This document shows, one piece after another, positions 9,565 to 33,203 of a stretch of 34,126 nucleotides of DNA. Every line of letters begins with the position of its first letter. Positions within the stretch are counted from its first letter, which is position 1. Origin of the DNA: Mesotoga sp. BH458_6_3_2_1 (GTDB lineage Bacteria; Thermotogota; Thermotogae; Petrotogales; Kosmotogaceae); the NCBI RefSeq assembly GCF_003664995.1, contig NZ_JFHL01000023.1, positions 1-34,126 on the forward strand. Reading direction: 5' to 3'. Below the pieces are notes generated by a model. The model had not been told where the DNA came from. It was given only the letters and a program-made list of their open reading frames with translations, and ran no database searches. A program made the translations under genes and the position numbers.

Positions 9565-9597
9565 TGAGAATAAACATATTTACAGGGGGTGATGTTC

Positions 9598-10719
9598 ATG
9601 ATTCTACTTGGAATCGATCTGCTTCAGAAAAATGATCTCAGCGGGTTGAAGAACAAGGCTATAGGACTGGTAACTAACTTCTCTTTCGTTGACTCAGATT
9701 TGAAGTGGGGAATTGACATACTGTTTGCAAATGGCCTGAACGTGAAGAAGATTTTCACACCGGAACATGGCCTGGGAGGAGCTGCAGACGGAGCGCATGT
9801 CAGTGATACCCTCCACCCCAAGTACGGGGTACCAATAGTCAGTCTATACGGAGACAGGCGCAAGCCTGTGAAGGCCGATCTTGAAGGCTTAGATATGCTG
9901 GTATATGACATACAGGATGTAGGATTAAGATTCTATACCTACATATACACTCTTGCCTATACAATGGAAGCCGCCGCAGATTACGGTCTTCAATACATGG
10001 TCCTCGACAGGCCAAACCCTCTTGGCAGAGGAGTCTTTGGAAGCAGAATTGAAAACGACCTCCAAACCTTTGTTGGTGGTTACGAACTCCCTCTTCAGTA
10101 CGGCCTAACCACGGGCGAACTTGCTCAGTACTTCAAGAAACTCAAGAGACTCGATCTCGATCTGAGAATTGCCAGGCTTGAAGGGTGGTGTGGAGAGATG
10201 CACGACAACACGTCTCTTTTCTGGAACGTACCTTCGCCAAATGTGCCAACATACGAGTCTCTTCTAGGTTATACCGGAACCTGCTTCTTTGAAAGTACAA
10301 ACGTATCGGAAGGACGGGGTACTTTCAAACCCTTCCTTGTGATAGGCGCTCCGTGGATAGACGGTGCCGACTTAACCGAATATCTTAGGAAGGAGTTTCC
10401 GGATCTCAGAGTAAGGAGCCGCGACTATATGCCGTTTTACAGAAAGTATGCCAATGCCAATTGCAGCGGCGTGGAGTTCTTCCCCAATACTGAAGACAAC
10501 TATTTCGTGATTACTTTGAAGATGATGGATTATTTGCTAAAATATGAACAATTTGATATTTTGGATCGTTCGGACGATCTAATAGGCATTAAAGAAAGCG
10601 CACAGAAGATCAGAACACAGAGCCTTGATTACAAAGCGTGGAAGGAATCCGGAATGGAGTTCATCGAATTTGTCGAGGATTGTCTTCTTTATCCCGGTGC
10701 GTTGAAGTATAGAGACTGA
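9598..10719 (+). CDS. namZ: Exo-beta-N-acetylmuramidase NamZ family (DUF1343, GH171)
   Basis: A 373-residue protein that matches DUF1343, the family of Bacillus subtilis NamZ/YbbC, which removes MurNAc from the non-reducing end of peptide-free glycan fragments. Hallmarks in order: FTPEHGL near 53-59 (E56 and H57 in the active-site region), YDIQDVGLRFYTYI, LDRPNPLG, PSPNVPTYES and YTGTCFFESTNVSEGRGT. I chose ATG 9598: the sequence AGGGGGTGAT ends 4 bases before it and pairs with the 16S 3' end, whereas in-frame GTG 9589 and ATG 9592 fall inside that site. There is no signal peptide, unlike the secreted Bacillus enzyme, so it should act on fragments after uptake. It is co-transcribed with the GntR gene 11 bases downstream. 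Family assignment is firm; substrate is inferred. Confidence 0.93.
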   Translation: MILLGIDLLQKNDLSGLKNKAIGLVTNFSFVDSDLKWGIDILFANGLNVKKIFTPEHGLGGAADGAHVSDTLHPKYGVPIVSLYGDRRKPVKADLEGLDMLVYDIQDVGLRFYTYIYTLAYTMEAAADYGLQYMVLDRPNPLGRGVFGSRIENDLQTFVGGYELPLQYGLTTGELAQYFKKLKRLDLDLRIARLEGWCGEMHDNTSLFWNVPSPNVPTYESLLGYTGTCFFESTNVSEGRGTFKPFLVIGAPWIDGADLTEYLRKEFPDLRVRSRDYMPFYRKYANANCSGVEFFPNTEDNYFVITLKMMDYLLKYEQFDILDRSDDLIGIKESAQKIRTQSLDYKAWKESGMEFIEFVEDCLLYPGALKYRD

Positions 10720-10730
10720 AGGGGGTCGTC

Positions 10731-11459
10731 ATGGCCGAAACACCAATTCCGCTGTATTACAAGCTTTATGTTGACTTGAAGGAATCCCTGAATTCGGGAA
10801 AATATCAGAAAGGAGACAAGCTTCCAACTGAGAAGGACCTATGCCAGAAGTACGGCATAAGCAGACTTACAGTTAGAAGGGCGATGGATGAGCTCAGAAG
10901 AGAGGGTTTCATTGAAAGATTGAAGGGGAAGGGAACCTTTGTTACTGGCTCCAAGAGGGAAGAACAGCTGGCAATACTTACAGGGTTCACAGATGAAGCA
11001 AGAAATCGAGGCGTTGAGACTCGTTCTGTGGTTCTCGAAAACAGACTCGTCAGGGTTCCTGCCGATGCCGTCGAGCTCTTCGACATTCCTGCCGATGCAA
11101 TGGTTGTGCTATTGAAAAGAGTAAGGATTCTCGAGGGTGAACCCTACGCAATTGAAGAGGCATATCTGAACGTGGGGGCCGACATTAGGCTTCTAAACAT
11201 TACACAGAGAGATATGGAAAGAGAATCCCTGTATGGAATCCTGAGAAAGGAGTTTGGAATCAACATCTCCTACGCCGAAGAAGAAATGGAGCTTACCAGA
11301 CTCAAGAAAGAAGAGGCCCGTTTTCTTCGACAGGATCAAGACGAATGTGCAATAATGAGGAAGAGATTCACTTATACAAAAAGCGATATATGTATTGAAT
11401 ACGTAATTTCACTGTACAGAGCCGACAAGAGCAAGTTCAGAATCGTCAGAAGAATATGA
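10731..11459 (+). CDS. GntR-family (HutC subfamily, UTRA) transcriptional regulator
   Basis: A 242-residue repressor-type regulator. The winged helix is at about residues 5-72, with KLPTEKDLCQKYGISRLTVRRAMDELRREGFIERLKGKGTFV being diagnostic in outline (PTE, RLTVRRA, GKGTFV). The C-terminal UTRA effector domain covers about 95-238. Many members of this branch, such as NagR and MurR-context regulators, sense amino-sugar phosphates, which suits its place 11 bases after the NamZ gene. It starts at ATG 10731 with GGGGG 5 bases upstream. It likely controls its own operon through a site in the 9480-9597 gap. The effector is unproven. Confidence 0.93.
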   Translation: MAETPIPLYYKLYVDLKESLNSGKYQKGDKLPTEKDLCQKYGISRLTVRRAMDELRREGFIERLKGKGTFVTGSKREEQLAILTGFTDEARNRGVETRSVVLENRLVRVPADAVELFDIPADAMVVLLKRVRILEGEPYAIEEAYLNVGADIRLLNITQRDMERESLYGILRKEFGINISYAEEEMELTRLKKEEARFLRQDQDECAIMRKRFTYTKSDICIEYVISLYRADKSKFRIVRRI

Positions 11460-11462
11460 AAC

Positions 11463-12130
11463 GTGGAAACGGGGTTGGTAGTAGGAAAGAGCAAAGGATC
11501 AGTTGCAAGTTTCAAGTTGTGAGTTGTAAAAAAGGCCGGGGTTGGTGGTTGGAGGTTCGTAAGAGAAAAAGAAACTGGTTGACCGCTGAGCGGTTCTCCT
11601 TTCTCCGAAAAGATCCGCTGGTCGCTTGCTAAGAGACGCTGTACGCTGGAAAGAGCGAAGTAACTGGTTCGCCGTTAGACGAGGGAATCTGTTCTTCGTT
11701 CTTGGTCAAAATCGTGAAGCAAGAGCATTAAGATTCCGACCAGGAGCTTTGTCGGAATGACGGAATCTGGCCTTTAGGAATAACCACTTGCTGTCATCCC
11801 GAACTTGTTTCGGGATCTGGTTTTGATCCTCTCGGCGGGGGACGGAGGACCGTTGACGGACAACGTTGTCTTCACAGCGATAAGCGTCTTCCAGCCAGCA
11901 TTTAGCGGCTCTTTCCCCGCGAAGCGGGCATTGTGACCTGGCGTGGTCTAAACCGTTTCTGATAACCCGCTGCTCCTAACCCGATTTTCATAACCCGTTC
12001 CTAGTAGTGGCTCTTTGCTCGACGAAGTCGGAACTGGCCTTTGCCAGAGGCAGAGACTGGCACCACGAAGTGGTACTGGCGAAGGCGAAGTCTTCACTTA
12101 CGGCGATGATTCTCGCCTTCTAGTAGCGGA
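11463..12130. repeat. Intergenic mosaic repeat block B
   Basis: It carries the same sub-elements as the block at 670-1255: ggttggtagtaggaaagag, 'gttgaccgctgagcggttc', TCCGAC-CAGGAGCTTT-GTCGGA-ATGAC (11735-11761) and GTCAT-CCCGAA-CTTGT-TTCGGG-ATCTGG (11793-11820). It also has an 80-base segment (11939-12018, starting ggcgtggtctaaaccg) that recurs almost unchanged at 25081-25160. From 12020 it has stems joined by ACTGGC linkers: CGAC-GAA-GTCG (12020-12030), a 7-bp stem with an AGA loop (12039-12055) and ACCAC-GAA-GTGGT (12062-12074). No gene is supported between 11460 and 12412. Confidence 0.85.
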
Positions 12131-12261
12131 TCTCTCGACAATGCTCTTTTTCATTGTCCTTCTGAACTAATGCTGCCTGCTAATCCGTCAAATATCACGA
12201 ACATAAACTTAAGGTACGAAGCAGCGTGATAAGTAAATGACAAAAGCCTTAATACGGTGTT

Positions 12262-12291
12262 TTGCAGACATTACCCGAAGTATGATATAAC
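12262..12291 (+). promoter_or_regulatory. Candidate promoter for epimerase-dpp operon
   Basis: TTGCAG (12262-12267), 18-base spacer and TATAAC (12286-12291), in the AT-rich stretch between the repeat block and the epimerase gene. A TATGAT at 12281 overlaps the -10. The leader would be about 115 bases. Confidence 0.35.
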
Positions 12292-12412
12292 TAAGTATTC
12301 GAAAGCCGAGTTATGTACTCCATTTTGATGAGATCTCGATTTAAGGTATTATTGTATAGATGTTTTTTCACTGTTGAAAGTGGGTTTTGCTTTCTTACAA
12401 GGGGAGGAAAGG

Positions 12413-13447
12413 ATGAAGATAAGGGATCTGCGCTTCACCGAAAAGAAATGGGACTTCGTAAAACCTTTTCACATTGCAAACAACGTTTCCAGCTCCAAAG
12501 TTAATATTGAAGTTGAATTGATTCTATCGGACGGAACGATCGGACTTGGAGAGTCATCCTCGTCATTCAGAGTGAACGGGGAGAGCGGAGCTGCTATCTT
12601 TCAGCTCCAGAAGGAGATTCTTGAAATGATTAAAGATCTCGACGTCCGAGACTACAGGAGAGTTTTCGCAAAGCTCGATGCGTATTCTAGAACGGCTCCC
12701 AGTTTGAAGGCCGCCATTCAATTTGCCACCCTTCACGCCTTTTCCAGATTGATCTCTACGCCTGTCTATCAGATTCTTGGTGGGATGAAGGACTTCGTGG
12801 AGACAGACAAGACCGTAAGTATAGGCAGTCTGGAAGAGACGGTTCATGACGCTAAGGAGATCTTCGAAGCGGGCCACAAAGTTATCAAGATGAAGGTCGG
12901 CGAAGATGTCAAGAGCGACATTGCCAGGTTACTGGCAGTCAACGATGTGATCAAGGGTGTCAGGTATGTGATAGATGCAAACACAGGCTATACACCCAAA
13001 GATGCTTTGAGATTCATAGATGCGATGTACCGAAACGACGTGCCCGTGGGGATATTCGAACAACCGGTGCCTGCCGAAGATTTCGAAGGACTGAAAATAA
13101 TCAGGCAGGGCTCTATGTATCCTGTTGGCGCAGATGAAAGCGCAAAGACGAAGTACGACGTTATGAGACTGATAAAGGAAGGCGCAGTCGATTACGTCAA
13201 TATCAAACTCATGAAGTCTGGACTATCAGACGCTCTTGCGATTGTAGAGATGTGTAACAGCGCGGGTATAGGTCTTATGATAGGCTGCATGAGCGAGTCG
13301 GGAGCAGGGGTCTCTCAAAGCGTTCATTTCGCGGCTGGAACCGGCGCATTCACTTATCACGATTTGGATTCTCATTTACTGCTTAAGAATGTCGATCCTG
13401 TCGGGTTCAGACAGGAGAAAGATAGACAGTATCCAATTTTATACTGA
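12413..13447 (+). CDS. Dipeptide epimerase (L-Ala-D/L-Glu epimerase type, enolase superfamily)
   Basis: A 344-residue enolase-superfamily enzyme of the muconate-lactonizing subgroup. All catalytic positions are visible: K159-x-K161 (IKMKVG), metal ligands D188 (DAN), E216 (EQP) and D241 (ADES), and the second general base K265 (NIKLMKSG). The C-terminal D317-x-D319 (HDLDSHLLL) is the pair that holds the dipeptide amino group in Ala-Glu epimerases. It inverts the second residue of a dipeptide, typically making L-Ala-L-Glu from the murein product L-Ala-D-Glu; the Thermotoga homologue is known to accept several dipeptides. ATG 12413 was chosen for its GGAGG site 5 bases upstream; a TTG at 12374 lacks one. 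The peptide transporter follows after 42 bases, so import and processing appear coupled. Confidence 0.92.
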   Translation: MKIRDLRFTEKKWDFVKPFHIANNVSSSKVNIEVELILSDGTIGLGESSSSFRVNGESGAAIFQLQKEILEMIKDLDVRDYRRVFAKLDAYSRTAPSLKAAIQFATLHAFSRLISTPVYQILGGMKDFVETDKTVSIGSLEETVHDAKEIFEAGHKVIKMKVGEDVKSDIARLLAVNDVIKGVRYVIDANTGYTPKDALRFIDAMYRNDVPVGIFEQPVPAEDFEGLKIIRQGSMYPVGADESAKTKYDVMRLIKEGAVDYVNIKLMKSGLSDALAIVEMCNSAGIGLMIGCMSESGAGVSQSVHFAAGTGAFTYHDLDSHLLLKNVDPVGFRQEKDRQYPILY

Positions 13448-13489
13448 TTTTTGTCATCACCCTTTAACGTGGGAAAAGGAGGTGCAAGA

Positions 13490-15061
13490 ATGAAGCGAAG
13501 CTTCATATTGATTTCTCTAATGGTACTTCTTGTTGCAGCGATGGGATTTGCTGCGACTCCAAAAGACACTCTTGTAATAGGCGCAAACACCGGCATTTTT
13601 ATTACCATGGATCCGGCCGTTGCCTATGAGGTATTTCCAAACAAAATCGTCGCTGCCATCTATGCTCAATTAGTCAAACTAGAGGCAATTGACGGCGTCA
13701 TCGTTCCAGTACCGGACATTGCCGAGAGCTGGGAGATTTCCGATGATGGACTTACCTACATCTTCAATATCAGGAAGGGAGTCAAATTCTCCAACGGTGA
13801 TGCCCTTACAGCCGAGGATGTTCTCTTCTCTCTGAAGAGACCAGTAGTTCTCGAGTCTGTTTCTGCGTGGTTCTTGGTCGATATATTCGGCATAAACAAG
13901 GACAACGTGGATGAGAAGATAAAGCAGATCGACGATTACACTGTGTCGATAACCTTGAACGCTCCTTATGCAGAGAACATAACACTCGGAATTCTATCCA
14001 ACATGTTCACAGGTATCGTCAACAAAGACGTAGTTCTTGAACACGAAGTCGAGGGAGACCTTGGTGGCGCATGGCTTACAGATCACTCCGCTGGTGCGGG
14101 TCCATACGTTCTCGTTCAGTGGGAAAGAAACAACGTTATCCTTCTTGAAGCCAACCCCAATTATTACGGCGAACAGCCCCCTCTGAAAAGAATAATGATA
14201 AGAGACATTCCAGAGGCATCAAACCAGAGACTTCTTCTCGAAAGAGGAGATATCGATGTGGCATGGGATCTCACGCCGCAGTTGCTGGAAGAAGCTAAGA
14301 GAAATCCCGACATCGTTGAAATCAAGGTTCCAGGACATTCAAACGAATATCTCTCAATGAATGCTACATGGGGACCCCTTGCGAACCCGAAGGTAAGAGA
14401 AGCCGTAAGGTTCTCGATCAATTACGAAGAGATCGTTGAGGACATTATGCTCAATAACGCTCTCCTAGTACAGGGTTTCATAAACAAGGGCTACTTCGGC
14501 TACGTGGAAGAGAACCCATTCTACCAGGATATCGAAAAAGCTAAGGCTCTTCTCGCTGAAGCAGGATACCCTGATGGATTCGAAGTCGAGCTTCTCACTA
14601 GCAATACCGACACGAGAAAGGCTGAAGCCGAGAAGATTCAGGCAGACCTTGCGCTTTCAGGAATTAAGGCCAATATAGTAATAATGCAGTCTTCTCAAAT
14701 GTACGCCAAGTATCGTGCACAGGGTCATCAGATGATCATCGCCGGCTGGGGTAATGACTATCCCGATCCGGACAACCTTGCGATGGCTCATGCCAGCTAC
14801 AGGGCAAATCAGCTAGCATGGAGAAATGCATGGTTCGACGATTACGCAGCGACACTTTGTGAATGGGGTCAGATAGAACCTAACCCATACAAACGAGAGC
14901 AGATTTATAAGGACCTTACGGAATACTGGTTCCACAATGGACCTTTTGCGATGCTTTACCAGACCGTAGAGTTCTGGGGAATTCGCAAAGAAGTCAAGAA
15001 CTTCGATGAAGCCGCTTTCGGCTACGGAATGTTGTTCGACTTCACAAAGGTATCTAAGTAA
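13490..15061 (+). CDS. Dipeptide/oligopeptide ABC transporter substrate-binding protein (family 5)
   Basis: A 523-residue SBP_bac_5 protein, the DppA/OppA family. The start ATG 13490 has GGAGG 7 bases upstream and opens with a clear signal peptide, MKRSFILISLMVLLVAAMG, likely cut near AFAA/TPK in this sequence (GFAA-TPK). There is no lipobox cysteine, so the mature protein is not lipid-anchored. Family segments are PDIAESWEISDDGLTYIFNIRKGVKFSNGDALTAEDV in outline, then LEANPNYYG and WGNDYPDPDN. It leads the transporter genes and is separated from them by a GC-rich hairpin. Peptides or muropeptides are the likely ligands, given the epimerase gene just upstream; family 5 proteins can also bind oligosaccharides. 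Confidence 0.93.
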   Translation: MKRSFILISLMVLLVAAMGFAATPKDTLVIGANTGIFITMDPAVAYEVFPNKIVAAIYAQLVKLEAIDGVIVPVPDIAESWEISDDGLTYIFNIRKGVKFSNGDALTAEDVLFSLKRPVVLESVSAWFLVDIFGINKDNVDEKIKQIDDYTVSITLNAPYAENITLGILSNMFTGIVNKDVVLEHEVEGDLGGAWLTDHSAGAGPYVLVQWERNNVILLEANPNYYGEQPPLKRIMIRDIPEASNQRLLLERGDIDVAWDLTPQLLEEAKRNPDIVEIKVPGHSNEYLSMNATWGPLANPKVREAVRFSINYEEIVEDIMLNNALLVQGFINKGYFGYVEENPFYQDIEKAKALLAEAGYPDGFEVELLTSNTDTRKAEAEKIQADLALSGIKANIVIMQSSQMYAKYRAQGHQMIIAGWGNDYPDPDNLAMAHASYRANQLAWRNAWFDDYAATLCEWGQIEPNPYKREQIYKDLTEYWFHNGPFAMLYQTVEFWGIRKEVKNFDEAAFGYGMLFDFTKVSK

Positions 15062-15070
15062 AGTATCCCC

Positions 15071-15094
15071 CGCCCCGCTCGGCTGAGCGGGGCG
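15071..15094 (+). terminator. Hairpin attenuator between binding-protein and permease genes
   Basis: CGCCCCGCTC-GGCT-GAGCGGGGCG is a perfect 10-bp stem with a four-base loop, starting 9 bases after the binding-protein stop and followed by TTGCTTTCT. The downstream permease genes run in the same direction with no clear promoter, so partial termination or mRNA protection is more likely than complete termination. The position mirrors the hairpin at 5735-5756. Confidence 0.75.
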
Positions 15095-15135
15095 TTGCTT
15101 TCTAAAAAATCAGCTATTGATACGGGGGTAATTCT

Positions 15136-16146
15136 ATGAACTTCGGACAATTCTTACTCAGAAGATTATTCTTAATGATCATAGTTCTCTTCGGAGTCGC
15201 CTGTATTGTCTTCTTTATTGCAAATGTAATACCCGCCGACCCGGTCGGCGCAATTCTTGGAGGCAATGCACCTCCTGAGGCCGTTGATAGACTCAAGGCA
15301 AAGCTGGGCTACGATCAACCACTTATAATCAGATTCGGTAAATTTATCACCGGTGCGGTTCAGGGAGATTTCGGTGTTTCCTTGAAAACATCTAACCCCG
15401 TCATGGAAGATATTCAGAACTATTTCCCCGCCACGATGGAGCTTGCTCTCGTTGCGATCGTAATATCTATCATACTTGGGATTACGCTGGGTATACTATC
15501 TGCCGTTCACCGTAATAAAGCCATAGACCAGTTTTCGAGAGTTTTCTCAATACTGGGTGTCTCTATGCCTGTTTTCTGGATCGGACTTCTTCTTCTGCTT
15601 GTCTTCTATTTCAAGCTAGGCTGGCTTCCTGGAAGCGGGAGACTGGGTTTCTTCACCTATCCACCACCCAGAGTAACGGGAATGTATCTAATAGACTCGC
15701 TTATAGCGGGCCAATGGGACACTTTCAAAGAGGCTCTGTTGCACATTCTTCTTCCTGCATTCGTACTCGGCTATAATGCAACTGCATCCATAGCGAGGAT
15801 TACAAGGGCCAGTATGCTCGATGTGCTGAGGCAGGACTTCATAAGGACGGCAAAATCAAAGGGTTTAAGGAAAAACATAGTCATATACCGCCATGCTCTT
15901 CGAAATTCCCTGATACCAACTGTCACTATAATTGGTTTGGTCTTTGGAAGCTTGCTCGAGGGAGCCGTTCTGACTGAAACGGTTTTCTCCTGGCCCGGTC
16001 TGGGCAGGTACATAACCACCGGAATGCTCTTCCTCGACTACCCGGCTGTAATGGGGGGGACTCTATATATTGCCCTTATCTACTCAATCGCGAACCTAAT
16101 TGTAGATATTCTTTACGCTCTTCTCGATCCAAGGATGAGGATGTGA
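15136..16146 (+). CDS. dppB: Dipeptide/oligopeptide ABC transporter permease (DppB/OppB-like)
   Basis: A 336-residue inner-membrane permease with six hydrophobic spans. The N-terminal segment MNFGQFLLRRLFLMIIVLFGV is typical of OppB/DppB. The cytoplasmic EAA loop that contacts the ATPases is seen at RQDFIRTAKSKGLRKNIVIYRHALRNSLIP (about residues 234-263), and the C-terminal DILYALLDPRMRM is the usual ending. ATG 15136 has GGGGGT about 6 bases upstream. It pairs with the permease encoded 5 bases downstream to form the channel. Confidence 0.94.
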   Translation: MNFGQFLLRRLFLMIIVLFGVACIVFFIANVIPADPVGAILGGNAPPEAVDRLKAKLGYDQPLIIRFGKFITGAVQGDFGVSLKTSNPVMEDIQNYFPATMELALVAIVISIILGITLGILSAVHRNKAIDQFSRVFSILGVSMPVFWIGLLLLLVFYFKLGWLPGSGRLGFFTYPPPRVTGMYLIDSLIAGQWDTFKEALLHILLPAFVLGYNATASIARITRASMLDVLRQDFIRTAKSKGLRKNIVIYRHALRNSLIPTVTIIGLVFGSLLEGAVLTETVFSWPGLGRYITTGMLFLDYPAVMGGTLYIALIYSIANLIVDILYALLDPRMRM

Positions 16147-16151
16147 TCTAG

Positions 16152-17024
16152 ATGGCTAAGACAGTGAAAGTATCTAAACCATTCATGGATGATTTGAAGC
16201 ACACAGTCTTTCTCTGGAGAAAGAGCCGCCTTACAATGGTCGGATCGGCATTGATCCTGATCTTCCTTCTCATGGCAGCTTTTGCGCCACTTATTGCTCC
16301 GTACGATCCCGTCCAGCAAAATTTGCAGGACAAGCTGCAGGCACCCAGTTGGCAGCATCTCTTTGGAACTGATCAGTTCGGAAGGGACATCTTCAGCAGA
16401 GTAGTTATTGGATCGAGAATCGCTCTCTGGATTATATTTCTGGTTTCGGTAATAAGTGGATCTATCGGTATAATAGTGGGTGTCACGGCAGGCTACTTTG
16501 GCGGGATTGTTGACGAAGTTCTGATGAGGATAACAGACATGTTTCTCGCCTTTCCAAGTCTAGTACTGGCGATGGCCTTCGCAGCGATGCTGGGGCCTAA
16601 TTTGACGAATACCATAATAGCTATCTCAGTTGTCACATGGACAACCTATGCCAGGCTCTCAAGGGCCGAAGCTATAAAGGTAAAATCGCAGCCATATATT
16701 GAAGCAATCCGTGCGGCAGGCGGTGGAAACCTAAGAATAATGTTCCTTCACGTGCTGCCAATGTGTATCTCTCCCGTTCTGGTTCAGCTGACCCTAAGGA
16801 TGGGAACGATAATCCTCACTGCAGCAAGTCTCGGTTTCCTCGGATTGGGAGTTCAGCCCCCGACACCGGAGTGGGGAGCCATGGTTTCCGATGGCAGGAA
16901 TTACCTGATAGACCAGTGGTGGATATCTACCTTCCCGGGTATATTCATCGCATTCGTCGTTCTTGGATTCAACCTCCTCGGTGACGGAATAAGAGACATG
17001 CTCGATCCAAGGTTGAGGAGGTAG
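16152..17024 (+). CDS. dppC: Dipeptide/oligopeptide ABC transporter permease (DppC/OppC-like)
   Basis: A 290-residue permease of the DppC type. It has the short cytoplasmic N-terminus and OppC_N segment (FLWRKSRLTMVGSALILIF), the periplasmic HLFGTDQFGRDIFSRV motif near residue 70-85, the EAA loop EAIRAAGGGNLRIMFLHVLP, and the ending GDGIRDMLDPRLRR. All are classic for this subfamily. Only 5 bases separate it from the dppB-like stop, and its ribosome site (GGATG or similar) is weak, so translation is probably coupled to the upstream gene. Confidence 0.94.
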   Translation: MAKTVKVSKPFMDDLKHTVFLWRKSRLTMVGSALILIFLLMAAFAPLIAPYDPVQQNLQDKLQAPSWQHLFGTDQFGRDIFSRVVIGSRIALWIIFLVSVISGSIGIIVGVTAGYFGGIVDEVLMRITDMFLAFPSLVLAMAFAAMLGPNLTNTIIAISVVTWTTYARLSRAEAIKVKSQPYIEAIRAAGGGNLRIMFLHVLPMCISPVLVQLTLRMGTIILTAASLGFLGLGVQPPTPEWGAMVSDGRNYLIDQWWISTFPGIFIAFVVLGFNLLGDGIRDMLDPRLRR

Positions 17025-17028
17025 TCTT

Positions 17029-18021
17029 ATGGAGATGAAAGGAAAACTACTAGACGTATCCAACCTGAAGGTATCTTTTTACACATACAGGGGAGTCGTT
17101 AAGGCACTCAACGGTGTCGACCTCTGGATGGATTCCGGAGAGAGACTGGGAGTCGTCGGCGAGACCGGTTGCGGGAAGTCAGTTACATCACTTGCAGTAA
17201 TGCGGTTGATAGAACAACCTGGAGAGATTCAGGAAGGAAAAGTGATTTTCAACGGCACGAATCTTGTCGAACTCTCCGAAGAGAAGATGAATCGGGTAAG
17301 AGGCGTCGAAATGTCTATGATATTCCAGGAACCCCGTTCATCGCTGAATCCGGTAATGAAGGTAGGCTATCAGATAGGAGAGTCGATTGCAAAGTCCAAG
17401 AAGATCAAGATCAAACAGACCTACCCGGAGGTCAAAGAGATGCTCCGCCTTGTCGGCCTTGATCCCGAAAGAGTTATGAACAGTTATCCTCATGAGCTTA
17501 GTGGCGGAATGTCCCAAAGAGTGATGATAGGAATGGGCCTTGCAAGTCATCCAAAGCTGCTAATAGCAGACGAACCAACATCTGCGCTTGATGTTACCAT
17601 CCAGGCTCAGATTCTTGAGTTGCTCGACGAACTGGCCAAAAAGATGGGCAACGCAGTCATGTTGATTACGCACGATATGGGTGTCGTTGCCGAGTTCTGT
17701 GACAAAGTCCTTGTAATGTACGCCGGAAACTCTGTCGAATATGCGTCTACAGCCAGACTGTTCGAAAAGCCGCTACATCCTTACACGGGTGGTCTACTCC
17801 AGGCGGTGCCGAGAGTGGGAAGAACAGATGAACTCAAGGCAATAAAGGGGACTGTTCCCGATCTGGTGAATCCTCCGTCCGGCTGCCGATTCCATCCGAG
17901 GTGTCCGCACGCGATGGATATCTGCAAAGTTGAAAGACCCCCATTTGTGGAGATCGAGCCCGATCATTACGTTGCCTGCTATCTATTCAAAGGAAAGAGC
18001 GAGGTGAGAGAAGATGGCTGA
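17029..18021 (+). CDS. dppD: Dipeptide/oligopeptide ABC transporter ATP-binding protein (DppD/OppD-like)
   Basis: A 330-residue ATPase subunit. Walker A is GETGCGKS (44-51), the signature is LSGGMSQR, Walker B is LLIADEPTSALDV and the switch histidine is in ITHDMG. The C-terminal oligo_HPY region has HPYTGGL and four cysteines (GCRFHPRCPHAMDIC and a final VACYLF), a pattern that carries an iron-sulfur cluster in mycobacterial DppD. It starts 5 bases after the dppC-like stop, with GAGGAGG about 7 bases before the ATG. It partners the next ATPase as a heterodimer. Confidence 0.95.
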   Translation: MEMKGKLLDVSNLKVSFYTYRGVVKALNGVDLWMDSGERLGVVGETGCGKSVTSLAVMRLIEQPGEIQEGKVIFNGTNLVELSEEKMNRVRGVEMSMIFQEPRSSLNPVMKVGYQIGESIAKSKKIKIKQTYPEVKEMLRLVGLDPERVMNSYPHELSGGMSQRVMIGMGLASHPKLLIADEPTSALDVTIQAQILELLDELAKKMGNAVMLITHDMGVVAEFCDKVLVMYAGNSVEYASTARLFEKPLHPYTGGLLQAVPRVGRTDELKAIKGTVPDLVNPPSGCRFHPRCPHAMDICKVERPPFVEIEPDHYVACYLFKGKSEVREDG

Positions 18022-18979
18022 GACCTTGATCAAGATCAAGAACCTGAAGACTTACTTCCCGGTGAAGAAGTCGATCTTCTCGAAGAAGCGATTTGTCAGA
18101 GCTGTAGACGACGTAAATATGGACATTCCAACTGGGTCAACCTTTGCCGTGGTCGGAGAGTCGGGCTCGGGAAAGACGACTCTTGCCAGAACTGTTTTGA
18201 GGCTTATCGAGCCGACCTCAGGTGAGATAGAATTCGAGGGAAAGGACATACTTGGACTCAAGGGCAAGGACCTGCTCGAAGTGAGAAGAAATATGCAGAT
18301 CGTCTTCCAGGACCCGTACAATTCGCTTCATCCCAGAAAACTGATTAAGAACATAATTGGGGAAGGGATGAAGATTCATTTCAAGATCACCGACATCGAA
18401 ATAAGAGACAGGATAGCGGCCGTTTTGAAAGAAGTAGGGCTGATAGACGATCACATGTATAGATATGCACATGAGTTCTCTGGTGGGCAACGCCAGAGAA
18501 TAGCATTTGCGAGAGCTATGGTTCTCAAACCGAAGTTCATCGTCCTTGACGAGCCGACCTCGGCGCTGGATGTCTCCGTTCAGGCAATGGTTCTCAAAAT
18601 GATGAAGGAAATAAAGGTCCAAGAGAATCTTACGTATATGTTCATAACACACAATCTATCTCTTGTGGATTATATAGCCGACAGAGTGGCCGTTATGTAT
18701 GTCGGTGAAGTAGTTGAGATGGGAGACAAGAGTACGATCTTCAAACATCCCTCTCACCCATACACTGATCTGTTAATGGCTTCCAACCCCGTCCCGGATC
18801 CGAAGTTCGTAAGGGAAAAGCGGCTACTGAAGGGTGAGATACCCAGTTCGATTGATCCGCCATCGGGCTGTAGATTCCATAACAGATGTCCATTTGCCGA
18901 TGAACGGTGCGAGAGGGAAGCACCTGAATTGAGGGAGATAAAACCCGGTCATTTTGTAAGGTGCCACTATCCCCTCTGA
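18014..18979 (+). CDS. dppF: Dipeptide/oligopeptide ABC transporter ATP-binding protein (DppF/OppF-like)
   Basis: A 321-residue second ATPase. Walker A GESGSGKT, signature FSGGQRQRIAFARA, Walker B FIVLDEPTSALDV and switch ITHNLS are intact. The C-terminus has HPYTDLL and the same four-cysteine layout (GCRFHNRCPFADERC, VRCHYPL). The gene overlaps the preceding ATPase by 8 bases, so the two are translated together. It closes the transporter operon and is followed by a terminator. The incomplete ATPase at 2-508 is a separate member of the same family, so the organism has more than one such transporter. Confidence 0.95.
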   Translation: MAETLIKIKNLKTYFPVKKSIFSKKRFVRAVDDVNMDIPTGSTFAVVGESGSGKTTLARTVLRLIEPTSGEIEFEGKDILGLKGKDLLEVRRNMQIVFQDPYNSLHPRKLIKNIIGEGMKIHFKITDIEIRDRIAAVLKEVGLIDDHMYRYAHEFSGGQRQRIAFARAMVLKPKFIVLDEPTSALDVSVQAMVLKMMKEIKVQENLTYMFITHNLSLVDYIADRVAVMYVGEVVEMGDKSTIFKHPSHPYTDLLMASNPVPDPKFVREKRLLKGEIPSSIDPPSGCRFHNRCPFADERCEREAPELREIKPGHFVRCHYPL

Positions 18980-29324: not shown

Positions 29325-30839
29325 ATGTTCGACAAGAGAGTTATCTTTCTCCCTGTAGATGAGCGATTCTGCACGAGAGATTATTTCCTGTTGCTGGCTC
29401 GTGCCGCAAATATTGACGTCGTTACTCCGCCGAAAGTTTATCTGGGGGCAAAGAAAACGCCCCCAGACCTTCGCCGTCTATCTAAATGGCTTGAGGAGAC
29501 TGTACTGCCGGGCGATTACCTGGTTATTTCTGTCGACATGCTCGTGCACGGCGGACTTATACCCTCGAGAATAAGCCTGGACACTCTGGATACCCTCATT
29601 GAAAGGCTCGGCCTGCTGGAGGAGCTGAAAAAATCGGACGTGAAGATCTACGCAACCACGACTATCACAAGAACGCCGTTCTACAACTCGTCCGAAGAGG
29701 AACCGGATTACTGGCAATACTTCGGGCTGGACATGTATGATCTCTCCAGACTTCTTGCCAGGAGCTTTAGAGGTGAGATGGTTCACCGCTCCATGATAGA
29801 AAAGATCGGCAAGATTCCCTCTCACTTCGTAACGGACTATCTTGTGAGACGAATAAGAAACAGAAAGCTTGTCTCTTCAGTAATAGAACTGGTAGACAAA
29901 GGCGTGATTGACTTTCTGAATCTAGTTCTCGACGATAACAGCAAGGAAAGCATATCCCTTGCCGAAAGTGAGATTCATCGGGCCATGGTAGACTCCCTCA
30001 AAATAGGATCGAGGGTCTCAATTCATGCAGGCGCAGATGAAGCGACACTTAGCCTACTGGCTAGAGTGCTTTCTGAATCGGTGGGAGAGATCCCGACCTT
30101 TGAGGTTCATTACGCCTCTCCGGAGCACAAAGATTTCATTCCACCCTACGAAGGCTCTCCACTCTACCAGGGCATTCAAAACCATATAGAGGCGGCCGGA
30201 GGAAAGGTGGTCGACAGCGCAGGAGAGATTCTGCTTCTGGCAAACAACCCGGAAGTCGGTCTCGACAGCGCTCAACAGCTCTCCGCTCCCACCGACTTGA
30301 GTGCGTATGATAGGTTCTTTCGCGAGATCGAAGCGGCAGATTCGATCATAAAGGGTATAGCCGATGTGAAGTACACCAACGGCGCAGACAACTATTTGGT
30401 CGAAGAGTTGCTTAAGAGAAGCGAACTGAACTGGCTGGAAACGAATTACTCGGCCTGGAACACAGCAGGAAACACTCTTGGAACAGTATGCGCCCATTCT
30501 ATAGTCCAGCTCCTGGGAAGTAAGGGGCTGCTGAAGGTAGATCAGTCAAGGATCAAGGAATTGCAGGCTATCTTCTTCCTTGAGCACTGGGCATTTCAGT
30601 CGAATATACGCAAGAGGCTGCTGGTCGAAGCAGAAAAAAGAGGGTCAAAGCCGTGGACAGTCATTCCCGTCGAATCATGGGCCGAGGGATTTGTAAGGAG
30701 TGAACTGACTCCCTATATTCCTCCTGTTCGAGATGCGCTGGAAATGGAATTCGAGATCGAGCGACTGTTCTTTCCCTGGCACAGATCCTTCGAACTCGGT
30801 CTTTCGATTTTGCAGAAAGACGATCCCAGAGGTGACTGA
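29325..30839 (+). CDS. DUF4127 family protein
   Basis: A 504-residue cytoplasmic protein recognised as DUF4127 by its opening IFLPVDERFCTRDYFLLLARAANIDVVTPPK in outline, followed by LVISVDMLVHGGLIPSR and TTTITRTPFYNSSEEEPDYW, then VHAGADEATL-type (SIHAGADEATLSLLAR) and DVKYTNGADN segments. The family has no function that I know to be established. The gene ends 1 base before the TTG start of the NanE epimerase, so the two are co-translated, and the wider area encodes amino-sugar and murein salvage. A role in amino-sugar or glycan metabolism is therefore a reasonable guess. The ribosome site is weak. No signal peptide or membrane span is present. Confidence 0.88.
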   Translation: MFDKRVIFLPVDERFCTRDYFLLLARAANIDVVTPPKVYLGAKKTPPDLRRLSKWLEETVLPGDYLVISVDMLVHGGLIPSRISLDTLDTLIERLGLLEELKKSDVKIYATTTITRTPFYNSSEEEPDYWQYFGLDMYDLSRLLARSFRGEMVHRSMIEKIGKIPSHFVTDYLVRRIRNRKLVSSVIELVDKGVIDFLNLVLDDNSKESISLAESEIHRAMVDSLKIGSRVSIHAGADEATLSLLARVLSESVGEIPTFEVHYASPEHKDFIPPYEGSPLYQGIQNHIEAAGGKVVDSAGEILLLANNPEVGLDSAQQLSAPTDLSAYDRFFREIEAADSIIKGIADVKYTNGADNYLVEELLKRSELNWLETNYSAWNTAGNTLGTVCAHSIVQLLGSKGLLKVDQSRIKELQAIFFLEHWAFQSNIRKRLLVEAEKRGSKPWTVIPVESWAEGFVRSELTPYIPPVRDALEMEFEIERLFFPWHRSFELGLSILQKDDPRGD

Positions 30840-30840
30840 A

Positions 30841-31551
30841 TTGCGTTCAGAACTGCTTAAGAAGATAGAGAAGAGAATAATCGTTTCGTGCCAGGCTTTA
30901 GAGGACGAACCTCTACACGGCCGTGGAATTATGGTGCTTATGGCGAAGGCTGCCATAATGGGAGGAGCCGCTGCGATAAGGGCAAACGGGGCACAAGACA
31001 TTGAGGATATTAAGTCCACATTCGACATACCCTTGATCGGACTTAACAAACGAGACATTGAGGGATATCCGGTTTACATAACTCCAACTTCGGAAGACGC
31101 CCTTTCTATTTTGAGAGCGGGAGCCGATGTTGTCGCCATAGACTGCACACTTAGGAGGAGACCGGAACCTCTCGATTCGATGTTTGCCGTAATAAGAGAG
31201 AAGTTCCCAGAAAGGCTCATAATGGCCGATATCTCCAGCATCGGGGATGCGAGGGAAGTATCCCGTCTCAAGCCCGATTTTCTCGCTACCACGCTTTCTG
31301 GCTACACAGATGAGACACTAGAGAGACCGCAACCGGATATCCGACTGGTAGAGGAGCTGGCCGAAGAGTTCGACATTTACGTGATTGCGGAGGGCAATTA
31401 CTGGCAGCCGGAACAGGTTGTGAAGGCCCTTGAGGCCGGGGCCTTTTCGGTTACTGTGGGAAGTGTCATCACGAGACCTCAGTTGATAACAAAGAGATTC
31501 ACGAGTTATATTGAGGAGTGGAATAAAGAAGGCTTCAAATCCCGGGATTAG
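30841..31551 (+). CDS. nanE: N-acylglucosamine-6-phosphate 2-epimerase (NanE)
   Basis: A 236-residue TIM-barrel enzyme that converts ManNAc-6-phosphate to GlcNAc-6-phosphate. Family motifs run the whole length: SCQALEDEPLH (16-26), RANG (47-50), PLIGLNKRD (64-72) with catalytic K70, ITPT (80-83), DCTLRRRP (101-108), MADIS (128-132), TTLSGYT (150-156), AEGNY with catalytic E184, and VGSVITRP (206-213). The start is taken as TTG 30841, just after the DUF4127 stop, with GAGGTGA about 5 bases upstream; a GTG at 30832 is the alternative. A sugar kinase of the ROK family lies two genes downstream and could supply the phosphorylated substrate. Confidence 0.93.
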   Translation: MRSELLKKIEKRIIVSCQALEDEPLHGRGIMVLMAKAAIMGGAAAIRANGAQDIEDIKSTFDIPLIGLNKRDIEGYPVYITPTSEDALSILRAGADVVAIDCTLRRRPEPLDSMFAVIREKFPERLIMADISSIGDAREVSRLKPDFLATTLSGYTDETLERPQPDIRLVEELAEEFDIYVIAEGNYWQPEQVVKALEAGAFSVTVGSVITRPQLITKRFTSYIEEWNKEGFKSRD

Positions 31552-31711: not shown

Positions 31712-32185
31712 TTGAAGCGTCTGTTTGCATTTCTTTTGTTTGTACTCCTGACTCTGACGGTTACGATGGGTTTGAGTGAAGAAGAGAAGAGACTCGAAAT
31801 CCAGGAAAGAGTCGAAAAGGCGGCCAGGCTGATCGAAGAGAATGGGCCAGAGATATTCTCGCTTTTCTACGATAGAGACGGCGAGTTCTTCATTGGTGAG
31901 GAGTACATCTTCATCTACGACGATAGCGGAACCAATCTAGTCAACGCGGGAAATCCAACCGTCTTTGAGGGTAGAAACCTGATATCTCTCAAAGACAAGA
32001 ACGGACTCTACATGATTGTCAGGATCTTCGAAGTCGCCCTAAATCAGGGAGGAGGCTGGCTGGATTTTTACTGGCCCTTGCCGGACGGAGGTCCCGCGAC
32101 ATTCAAGAGCGCCTACGTTATGTCCGCTACTCACGGAGAGTTGACATATGTGCTTGGAATGGGATATTACAAACAGGAGCAATGA
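31712..32185 (+). CDS. Secreted single Cache-domain protein
   Basis: A 157-residue protein starting at TTG 31712 with AAGGAGG 7 bases upstream. The first 20 residues, MKRLFAFLLFVLLTLTVTMG, form a signal peptide. The remainder (about 22-155) matches a single Cache (sCache_2-like) ligand-binding domain: a long helix (EKRLEIQERVEKAARLIEENG), YIFIYDDSGTNLVNAGNP, GRNLISLKDKNGLYMI, and a final FKSAYVMSA...YVLGMGYY. Cache domains normally sit outside a chemoreceptor or kinase; here the domain stands alone as a periplasmic protein, so it may act as a ligand-binding partner. Ligand unknown. Confidence 0.82.
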   Translation: MKRLFAFLLFVLLTLTVTMGLSEEEKRLEIQERVEKAARLIEENGPEIFSLFYDRDGEFFIGEEYIFIYDDSGTNLVNAGNPTVFEGRNLISLKDKNGLYMIVRIFEVALNQGGGWLDFYWPLPDGGPATFKSAYVMSATHGELTYVLGMGYYKQEQ

Positions 32186-32306: not shown

Positions 32307-33203
32307 ATGCTTGCTCTCGGAATAGATATTGGCGGAACGATGATCAAGACGGCGATTGTGGATTCAAATGGCACACTCTCCGAGAAGAGATTATTTCCAA
32401 CCTCCATAGATCTAAAAGACCAGCTCTTGGAGATCGTTAGGGAAGAGCTAGCCGCGCACAAAGTGGAAGCTATAGGCATCGGTACGGCAGGAAGAATCGA
32501 TCCTGTCACTGGAAATGTGAATCTGGCTACGAGCAATCTCGCCAACTGGACCGGAGTACCTGTAAAGACTCTCATCCAGGAGAATACAGGCGTTGTTACA
32601 GCCGTTCTGAACGATTCAAGTGCGGCTGCATTCGGCGAATGGTTCTGCAACTATCGTCGGGCGGAAACCCTGGTCATGATAACGGTGGGGAGTGGCCTTG
32701 GCGGAGGAATCGTGATAAACGGCTCTCCTCTTCTCGGAAAGCGCGGAGAGGCAGCGGAATTCGGTCACATCATCATACACCGTGGTGGAAAACCTTGCAA
32801 CTGCGGTAAGGAGGGGTGCGCCGAGCAATATATATCTATGCGCCTTATTCATAGCCTTGTGGCAGCGGCAGCAGGCCAAGAGATGGACAGAGCCACTCTC
32901 ATCGAACAGTATCTAAGCGGCAATCCAGTTGTTGAAGAAGCAGTAAGTACCGTAACAGGAGATCTTGCGATAGTAGTCGACTCGGTCTTCCTGAGTTTAG
33001 ACCCCGACCTAGTAGTTGTGGGAGGCGGCGTGTGTGAGCTTGGGAAGAGATTCCTGAACAGCCTGAGAGAGGAACTTTCAGTGCTATCAAGATCGTCGCT
33101 GTATACCGAAGAAGATGTGGTTCTTTCTCTTTCTGGAAACGATGCAGGAATAATAGGTGCAGCTGTCTATGCAATGGCCGGAGAAGCATCCGGACACGAA
33201 TGA
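32307..33203 (+). CDS. ROK-family sugar kinase (glucokinase/N-acetylmannosamine kinase type)
   Basis: A 298-residue cytoplasmic kinase. The ATP loop DIGGT is at 7-11, the catalytic aspartate is D103 (LNDSSAAAFGE), a second phosphate loop is TVGSGLGGG (127-134), and the ROK signature is complete with H154 and C164, C166, C171 (EFGHIIIHRGGKPCNCGKEGC in outline), which bind zinc. There is no N-terminal helix-turn-helix, so it is a kinase rather than a ROK repressor. ATG 32307 has GAGGTG upstream. With nanE nearby, N-acetylmannosamine or another amino sugar is a plausible substrate; glucose is the main alternative. It is the last gene before the right-hand repeat block. Confidence 0.9.
   Translation: MLALGIDIGGTMIKTAIVDSNGTLSEKRLFPTSIDLKDQLLEIVREELAAHKVEAIGIGTAGRIDPVTGNVNLATSNLANWTGVPVKTLIQENTGVVTAVLNDSSAAAFGEWFCNYRRAETLVMITVGSGLGGGIVINGSPLLGKRGEAAEFGHIIIHRGGKPCNCGKEGCAEQYISMRLIHSLVAAAAGQEMDRATLIEQYLSGNPVVEEAVSTVTGDLAIVVDSVFLSLDPDLVVVGGGVCELGKRFLNSLREELSVLSRSSLYTEEDVVLSLSGNDAGIIGAAVYAMAGEASGHE

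Follow-up and report, generated by a model that had tools for sequence, protein, structure and literature searches.

Four kinds of described system come closest to the locus analyzed here: the nan operons for sialic acid and ManNAc, the recycling of muropeptides through NamZ and MurQ, the sugar pathways that oxidise before they cleave, and the loci for ManNAc-containing secondary cell-wall polysaccharides. In recycling, MurQ gives GlcNAc-6-P without NanE, and the oxidise-then-cleave pathways (3-keto-glycoside routes and flavin- or NAD-dependent deglycosylation) combine a redox enzyme with a second enzyme and an importer. To our knowledge, neither PF12831 nor DUF4127 is among the enzyme families described for the latter. 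Our locus pairs nanE with a gene of the DUF4127 family, and we read it as the core of an amino-sugar catabolic operon in which DUF4127 would be an acid/base carbohydrate enzyme that needs no cofactor and works ahead of NanE, a reading to which we give a probability of about 50%. That this clade of DUF4127 takes part in the catabolism of ManNAc- or other HexNAc-containing glycans seems very likely.

The window, by which we mean the whole 34,126-nt stretch of DNA that was analyzed, is contig C23 of a Mesotoga genome of 3.23 Mb in 36 contigs. On its forward strand a full-length DUF4127 (PF13552) gene (29325-30839; ATG start, 504 aa, no signal peptide) is followed by nanE, for N-acetylmannosamine-6-phosphate 2-epimerase (30841-31551; TTG start), by a gene for a single-Cache-domain protein with a hydrophobic N-terminus (31712-32185) and by a gene for a ROK-family sugar kinase, a candidate ManNAc kinase (32307-33203). 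The DUF4127 ORF matches positions 1-488 of the 489 in the PF13552 profile (E 1.9e-122, 409.8 bits, cut-off 27). NanE scores 188.4 bits against PF04131 (cut-off 27) and 265 bits against NF002231 (cut-off 189), and its K70 and E184, which we take to be the catalytic Lys and Glu, are invariant across 15 aligned NanE rows, the window included. The kinase belongs to the ROK family by its 182.8 bits against PF00480 (cut-off 22.9), but because it scores below both NanK cut-offs (127.7 against 450 for NF047821, 144 against 283 for NF003461), we infer ManNAc as its substrate rather than read it from these models.

The earlier note had described the two genes as translationally coupled, with their proteins made together. 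In the window the DUF4127 stop codon TGA (30837-30839) is indeed separated by a single base from the TTG at 30841, and the ribosome-binding site of nanE, GAGGTGA (30829-30835, forward strand), lies within the DUF4127 gene, at its 3' end. GAGGTGA with a TTG shortly downstream is conserved in the window and in the loci L045, L054, L046, L029 and L052, a comparison that supports TTG as the probable start. A start at the in-frame GTG at 30832 would make nanE overlap the DUF4127 stop, but that codon sits within the ribosome-binding site. The distance from the DUF4127 stop to the TTG is 1 nt in the window, 17 nt in L045, 17 nt in L052, 19 nt in L054 and 433 nt in L046, despite a DUF4127 protein in L046 that is 91% identical to the window's. 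The 433-nt stretch of L046 (L046:2799-3231) leaves the ribosome-binding site and the TTG of nanE unaltered. Because the spacing varies from 1 to 433 nt among relatives, the strict one-base coupling is a feature of this strain and not a conserved arrangement; DUF4127 and nanE are adjacent in all sampled close relatives, and the two proteins may be made together.

The window operon has no transporter, glycosidase or flavoenzyme gene. In L045 and L054 an importer, DUF4127, NanE, a flavoenzyme and a ROK kinase are kept together. The Cache-domain protein of the window carries no signalling domain and has the same position in L046, the position at which L045 and L054 have the flavoenzyme. The nearest PF12831 flavoenzyme of the window's genome, 60% identical to that of L054, is on contig C17, where no further operon gene was recognised among the neighbours inspected by eye. 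Because it is located on another contig in this strain, this partner is invisible in the window sequence.

Gene neighbourhoods were surveyed across a wider set. A search over 84,980 species returned 528 DUF4127 relatives. We retrieved the top 80, which are the best matches to a Thermotogota-based query and no random sample; more loci came from the phylum of L079. Twelve duplicate or short loci were dropped (L005, L016, L018, L019, L022, L023, L043, L044, L052, L053, L075 and L190). Of the 128 DUF4127 ORFs, 36 were set aside because a flank was shorter than 4 kb, the window's included, which left 92, called cytosolic (67) or exported (25) by a simple hydrophobicity rule rather than a trained predictor. 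Near-identical species stay in the counts (for example L035/L036, L070/L121 and L087/L110). The 40 control windows of 20 kb each were chosen manually, at round coordinates, from 10 Thermotogota genomes and 12 others, so that Fisher values are to be read as indicative only. The N-terminal half of the long ORF in L060 is a reading-frame artefact, and the long ORFs at the GC-rich loci L085, L090 and L128 are taken to be the same.

NanE is found within 10 kb of 30 of the 67 cytosolic DUF4127 genes and in none of the 40 controls; in six further Thermotogota loci (L032, L033, L035, L036, L037 and L041) it lies 7.2-9.4 kb away, just beyond the fetched stretch, which brings the count to 36/67. A ROK kinase is nearby in 35/67 cytosolic loci and 1/40 controls, a PF12831 flavoenzyme in 51/67 and 1/40, a CUT1-type permease in 55/67 and 9/40, a solute-binding protein in 56/67 and 6/40, any glycosidase-like protein in 35/67 and 3/40, and an RpiR regulator in 24/67 and 1/40. 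We see this association in Thermotogota and Bacillaceae, and again in Chloroflexota (L069), Actinomycetota (L094, L102) and Pseudomonadota (L095, L128); the partner families are absent from eight survey loci (L068, L071, L086, L112, L119, L122, L127 and L188). The amino-sugar link is thus real for this clade, and the flavoenzyme is its steadiest partner.

The composition of individual clusters points the same way. By Pfam, neighbours were assigned to PF12831 flavoenzymes, GHL10, GH38, GH84, GH20, SIS proteins, RpiR and LacI regulators, GDPD and an esterase. An operon census in addition covered 68 of 87 unlabelled neighbours, with results from the first 25 families listed. At L037, taken as representative, the order is flavoenzyme, solute-binding protein, two permeases, GHL10, DUF4127, ROK, RpiR, SIS and NagA, with NanE 7.4 kb from DUF4127, so that nearly the full route is present in one cluster. 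Bacillaceae have a solute-binding protein, NanE, RpiR, ROK, permeases, GH38 and DUF4127, then ROK and/or a flavoenzyme, and GHL10 or GH84. The SIS protein of L043 is closest to GlmS and NagB-II, below the cut-offs for either, and in L039 NanE and ROK are fused.

Within Thermotogota the pairing can be followed genome by genome. DUF4127 is present in 29 of 103 genomes, and 23 of these carry the window's clade (clade I; 38-100% identity over the aligned part, one a short fragment). NanE exceeds its cut-off in 20 of the 23 clade-I genomes compared with 15 of the 80 others (Fisher 3e-9). In 19 of the 20 genomes with both, clade-I DUF4127 and nanE lie within 10 kb on one contig, with 0.1-9.4 kb between the profile matches, where about 0.2 such cases would be expected by chance; in the twentieth (G050) they are on different contigs. 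A second clade (clade II, about 25% identity) also occurs in Thermotogota and pairs with a barrel protein, c12, instead of NanE; the window's own genome carries a copy of it (L002/L050) in addition to the clade-I gene. The two genomes with only clade II that have NanE (G018 and G057) have it elsewhere, away from DUF4127. The divergent second copy of the window's genome (L050:8065-9483, contig C24) has a PF12831 flavoenzyme on one side and a Gfo/Idh-type oxidoreductase on the other; upstream of them lie c12 and a sugar ABC transporter.

The c12 family comprises proteins of about 220-240 aa (L034:13145-13819 and 17 other ORFs), and the one member tested gave no match in Pfam or NCBIfam. It is found near 17/67 cytosolic DUF4127 genes and in 0/40 controls. 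Its profile aligns with NanE over the full length (hhalign probability 96, E 3e-9), NanE Lys70 and Glu184 are missing from it, and its predicted structure (pLDDT 95) matches phosphate-binding TIM barrels, among them the alpha chain of tryptophan synthase, ribulose-phosphate epimerase and aldolases. The two families exclude each other: among the 67 cytosolic loci 30 have only NanE, 17 only c12, 20 neither and none both (Fisher 6e-6), and 14 have neither even when the six extra Thermotogota NanE loci are counted. On the DUF4127 tree, a FastTree reconstruction with several long branches, the states NanE, c12 and neither change 17 times, and even sister rows differ (L060 has NanE, L181 has c12). 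NanE and c12 thus swap around a conserved core of DUF4127 and flavoenzyme, and this alternation is the best sign that DUF4127 works in the same pathway and is not simply riding along.

Exported DUF4127 proteins have different neighbours. NanE, ROK, the permease and the solute-binding protein are each found in 0/25 of their loci, where we find instead a flavoenzyme in 5, a CsaB-like gene in 3, DUF5693 in 3, LCP in 4 and WecG/TagA in 2. With so few loci (CsaB 3/25, WecG 2/25, and LCP 4/25 compared with 4/40 controls) the tie to wall-polymer loci is suggestive. The flavoenzymes appear to match the compartment of their partner. An N-terminal hydrophobic segment is seen in 0/59 of those within 10 kb of a cytosolic DUF4127 (13 of which lack the anchor nucleotide motif and are effectively unscored), compared with 4/6 beside an exported one and a fifth, L111, judged by eye; as one or two lineages supply all the exported pairs, this too is suggestive. 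At L079:13798-17422 and L082:13409-17092, tandem flavoenzyme-family proteins with N-terminal membrane segments and an altered nucleotide-binding motif (GSDPEG) adjoin an exported DUF4127, DUF5693 and a CsaB-like gene. The earlier note had tied the DUF4127 family as such to amino-sugar metabolism. For the window's clade this is borne out by the NanE and ROK counts, by the 19 Thermotogota genomes and by nagA and SIS in the L037 cluster, but it does not extend to the whole family, given clade II with its c12 and the 25 exported loci.

What DUF4127 itself does must be judged from its sequence and predicted fold. The AlphaFold model is of high confidence (pLDDT 91.3, pTM 0.92), and solved structures offer neither a sequence match nor a clear fold match. 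Among the 50 Foldseek matches listed the best E is 3.2e-3 and TM is at most 0.37, and the best VIA match (Z 9.8 over 178 residues, rmsd 5.2) is to the N-terminal domain of a plant resistance protein. SIS proteins and xylose isomerase were considered as fold relatives and rejected on poor superpositions, and NamZ is not among the fold matches listed. The predicted fold consists of alternating strands and helices, with most of the conserved residues after strands, and in the model these residues would lie at one edge of the fold. Conserved in at least 97% of 127 sequences are P10, D12, R14, P35, W55, G76, S81, R82, R116, D204, G236, D238, D347, N352, W378, N379, T380, N383, G386, R487 and F489, whereas no His, Cys or Lys reaches 88% in the same set. 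Some members have signal peptides or lipoboxes, and the existence of such exported proteins argues against a need for a cytosolic cofactor (ATP, NAD or CoA). On account of the signal peptides we also rejected a kinase role. These features fit a cofactor-free hydrolase, lyase or isomerase that would act on sugars via carboxylates; a kinase, a zinc deacetylase or a Ser-His-Asp esterase would fit poorly.

The pathway that we propose, whose substrate, step order and DUF4127 reaction we infer around the observed gene content, association statistics, co-occurrence with the flavoenzyme and residue conservation, would begin with import of a ManNAc- or other HexNAc-containing glycan fragment, in most relatives by a CUT1-type ABC transporter. 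The fragment would be broken down in the cytosol by DUF4127, the PF12831 flavoenzyme and glycosidase-like proteins (GHL10, GH38, GH84, GH20), with DUF4127 most likely cutting a glycosidic bond, or else a bond that the flavoenzyme has activated. The invariant Asp12, Asp204, Asp238 and Asp347 would serve as its acid/base residues together with Arg14, Arg82, Arg116 and Arg487. The freed sugar would be phosphorylated by the ROK kinase and epimerised as sugar phosphate by NanE to GlcNAc-6-P, which NagA would deacetylate before a GlmS/NagB-II-type SIS protein deaminates it. The earlier note had suggested that DUF4127 could release, deacylate or otherwise prepare the substrate of NanE, and of these options release is our best guess. 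Our preference for bond cleavage over isomerisation is tentative, at slightly less than even odds, and the label "glycoside-cleaving" is a proposal that would go beyond the fold and sequence searches, which give it no structural backing.

The gene neighbourhoods would look identical if DUF4127 instead isomerised or epimerised the imported sugar, as an isomerase or mutarotase, for use by the flavoenzyme or kinase. Alternating strands and helices with conserved residues after the strands are also seen in sugar isomerases, and pairing with the flavoenzyme where no glycosidase is recognised (L034, L049, L050, L104 and L131) would suit a free sugar. However, neither His nor Lys is conserved in DUF4127, no metal site can be recognised, and the fold search brings up no convincing isomerase. 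We consider an isomerase possible but unlikely.

A role in peptidoglycan turnover, with NamZ/MurQ-type recycling as the true setting, is a good deal less probable. GHL10, which often adjoins DUF4127, is a domain of the lytic transglycosylase Cwp19 according to a passage in PMC6016235, a connection that would suit a muropeptide substrate. NamZ is present in 52/103 and MurQ in 56/103 Thermotogota genomes. The two lie 11-24 kb from DUF4127 in G045, G067 and G068, and NamZ lies about 19 kb away in G000 and about 15 kb away in G028. In the window a NamZ gene is located 18.6 kb upstream of DUF4127; it was identified by a PF07075 match (9661-10254), with no NCBIfam family, and shares the region 9589-18979 with an oligopeptide ABC transporter, an L-Ala-D/L-Glu epimerase and a GntR regulator, a set that probably serves the recycling of muropeptides. 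However, no clade-I DUF4127 in the 103 Thermotogota genomes has NamZ or MurQ within 10 kb, and NanE would be superfluous if MurQ alone supplied GlcNAc-6-P. Of the four partners that the earlier note had proposed to look for, nanE and the ROK kinase are enriched near cytosolic DUF4127, and NamZ and MurQ are no part of the operon.

The deacylation option fares worse still. DUF4127 would then prepare the substrate of NanE as a deacetylase or esterase, and acyl groups on that substrate are conceivable, since Bacillaceae operons repeatedly contain an esterase-like PF00756 protein (L084) or relatives of it (cluster 13). DUF4127, however, lacks any conserved His, Cys or Lys, its conserved hydroxyl residues are limited to Ser81, Thr380 and one Tyr position, and neither the usual Ser-His-Asp triad nor a zinc site is apparent. 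Deacetylation is moreover already covered, since NagA is present in 99/103 Thermotogota genomes, on which ground we also rejected DUF4127 as a NagA replacement. We regard this role as highly improbable. As for where the ManNAc comes from, NanA is found in none of the 103 Thermotogota genomes (TIGR00683, E up to 1e-60, with the E. coli control detected), so that sialic acid, which we had considered as the source, is unlikely and unsupported in this phylum.

That the neighbourhood is coincidence or shared regulation, with DUF4127 riding in sugar operons while serving an unrelated process, draws on the unrelated contexts of the signal-bearing proteins (NanE, ROK and sugar importer 0/25), but recurrence across five bacterial groups against near-zero controls, and a NanE/c12 alternation that hitch-hiking hardly explains, leave it next to no probability.

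Our main reading, a carbohydrate enzyme upstream of NanE, can be carried one step further, though this extension is doubtful. DUF4127 and the PF12831 flavoenzyme might together make up a flavin-assisted module of two enzymes for cleaving glycans, with a fold that known glycosidases do not share, which inside the cell would free ManNAc-type sugars for NanE or c12, and outside it, in the signal-bearing versions, would act on cell-wall polysaccharide.

We found no published paper naming DUF4127, none bearing on this gene set in the literature on N-acetylmannosaminidases and 3-keto-glycosides, and none on it in the literature on family and CAZy names, secondary cell-wall polysaccharide and NanE operons; as far as these searches show, none of DUF4127, the PF12831 subgroup and c12 has been characterised. 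DUF4127 is nevertheless widespread, with more than 500 relatives in one genome collection and no function found in print. The ties of one part of it to ManNAc catabolism and of most cytosolic members to a flavoenzyme make this unannotated family a testable enzyme, bring to light a second unannotated family, c12, that takes the place of NanE, and point to an undescribed route for dismantling ManNAc-containing glycans.

Compared with the described systems, the DUF4127 operons come closest to the nan operons, with which they share NanE, a ROK kinase, an RpiR-type regulator, NagA and a deaminase-like SIS protein; they differ in having no NanA (0/103 Thermotogota) and in having DUF4127, the PF12831 flavoenzyme and GHL10/GH38/GH84/GH20 proteins instead. 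With the oxidise-then-cleave pathways they share the pairing of a redox enzyme with a second enzyme and an importer. The likeness to NamZ-MurQ recycling is in the scavenging of amino sugars, and in G045, G067 and G068 the genes for NamZ, MurQ and NagA are all no more than about 26 kb from DUF4127, but NamZ and MurQ never come within 10 kb and GlcNAc-6-P would be fed by NanE, not MurQ. As to secondary cell-wall polysaccharide loci (TagA/WecG, LCP, CsaB), whose polymers contain ManNAc according to a passage in PMC6801904, signal-bearing DUF4127 genes adjoin LCP and lie near WecG/TagA, CsaB-like and PF12831 genes in Desulfotomaculum-type bacteria; those loci differ in being biosynthetic, without NanE or ROK. 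We class the operon type as a variation on the known catabolism through NanE.
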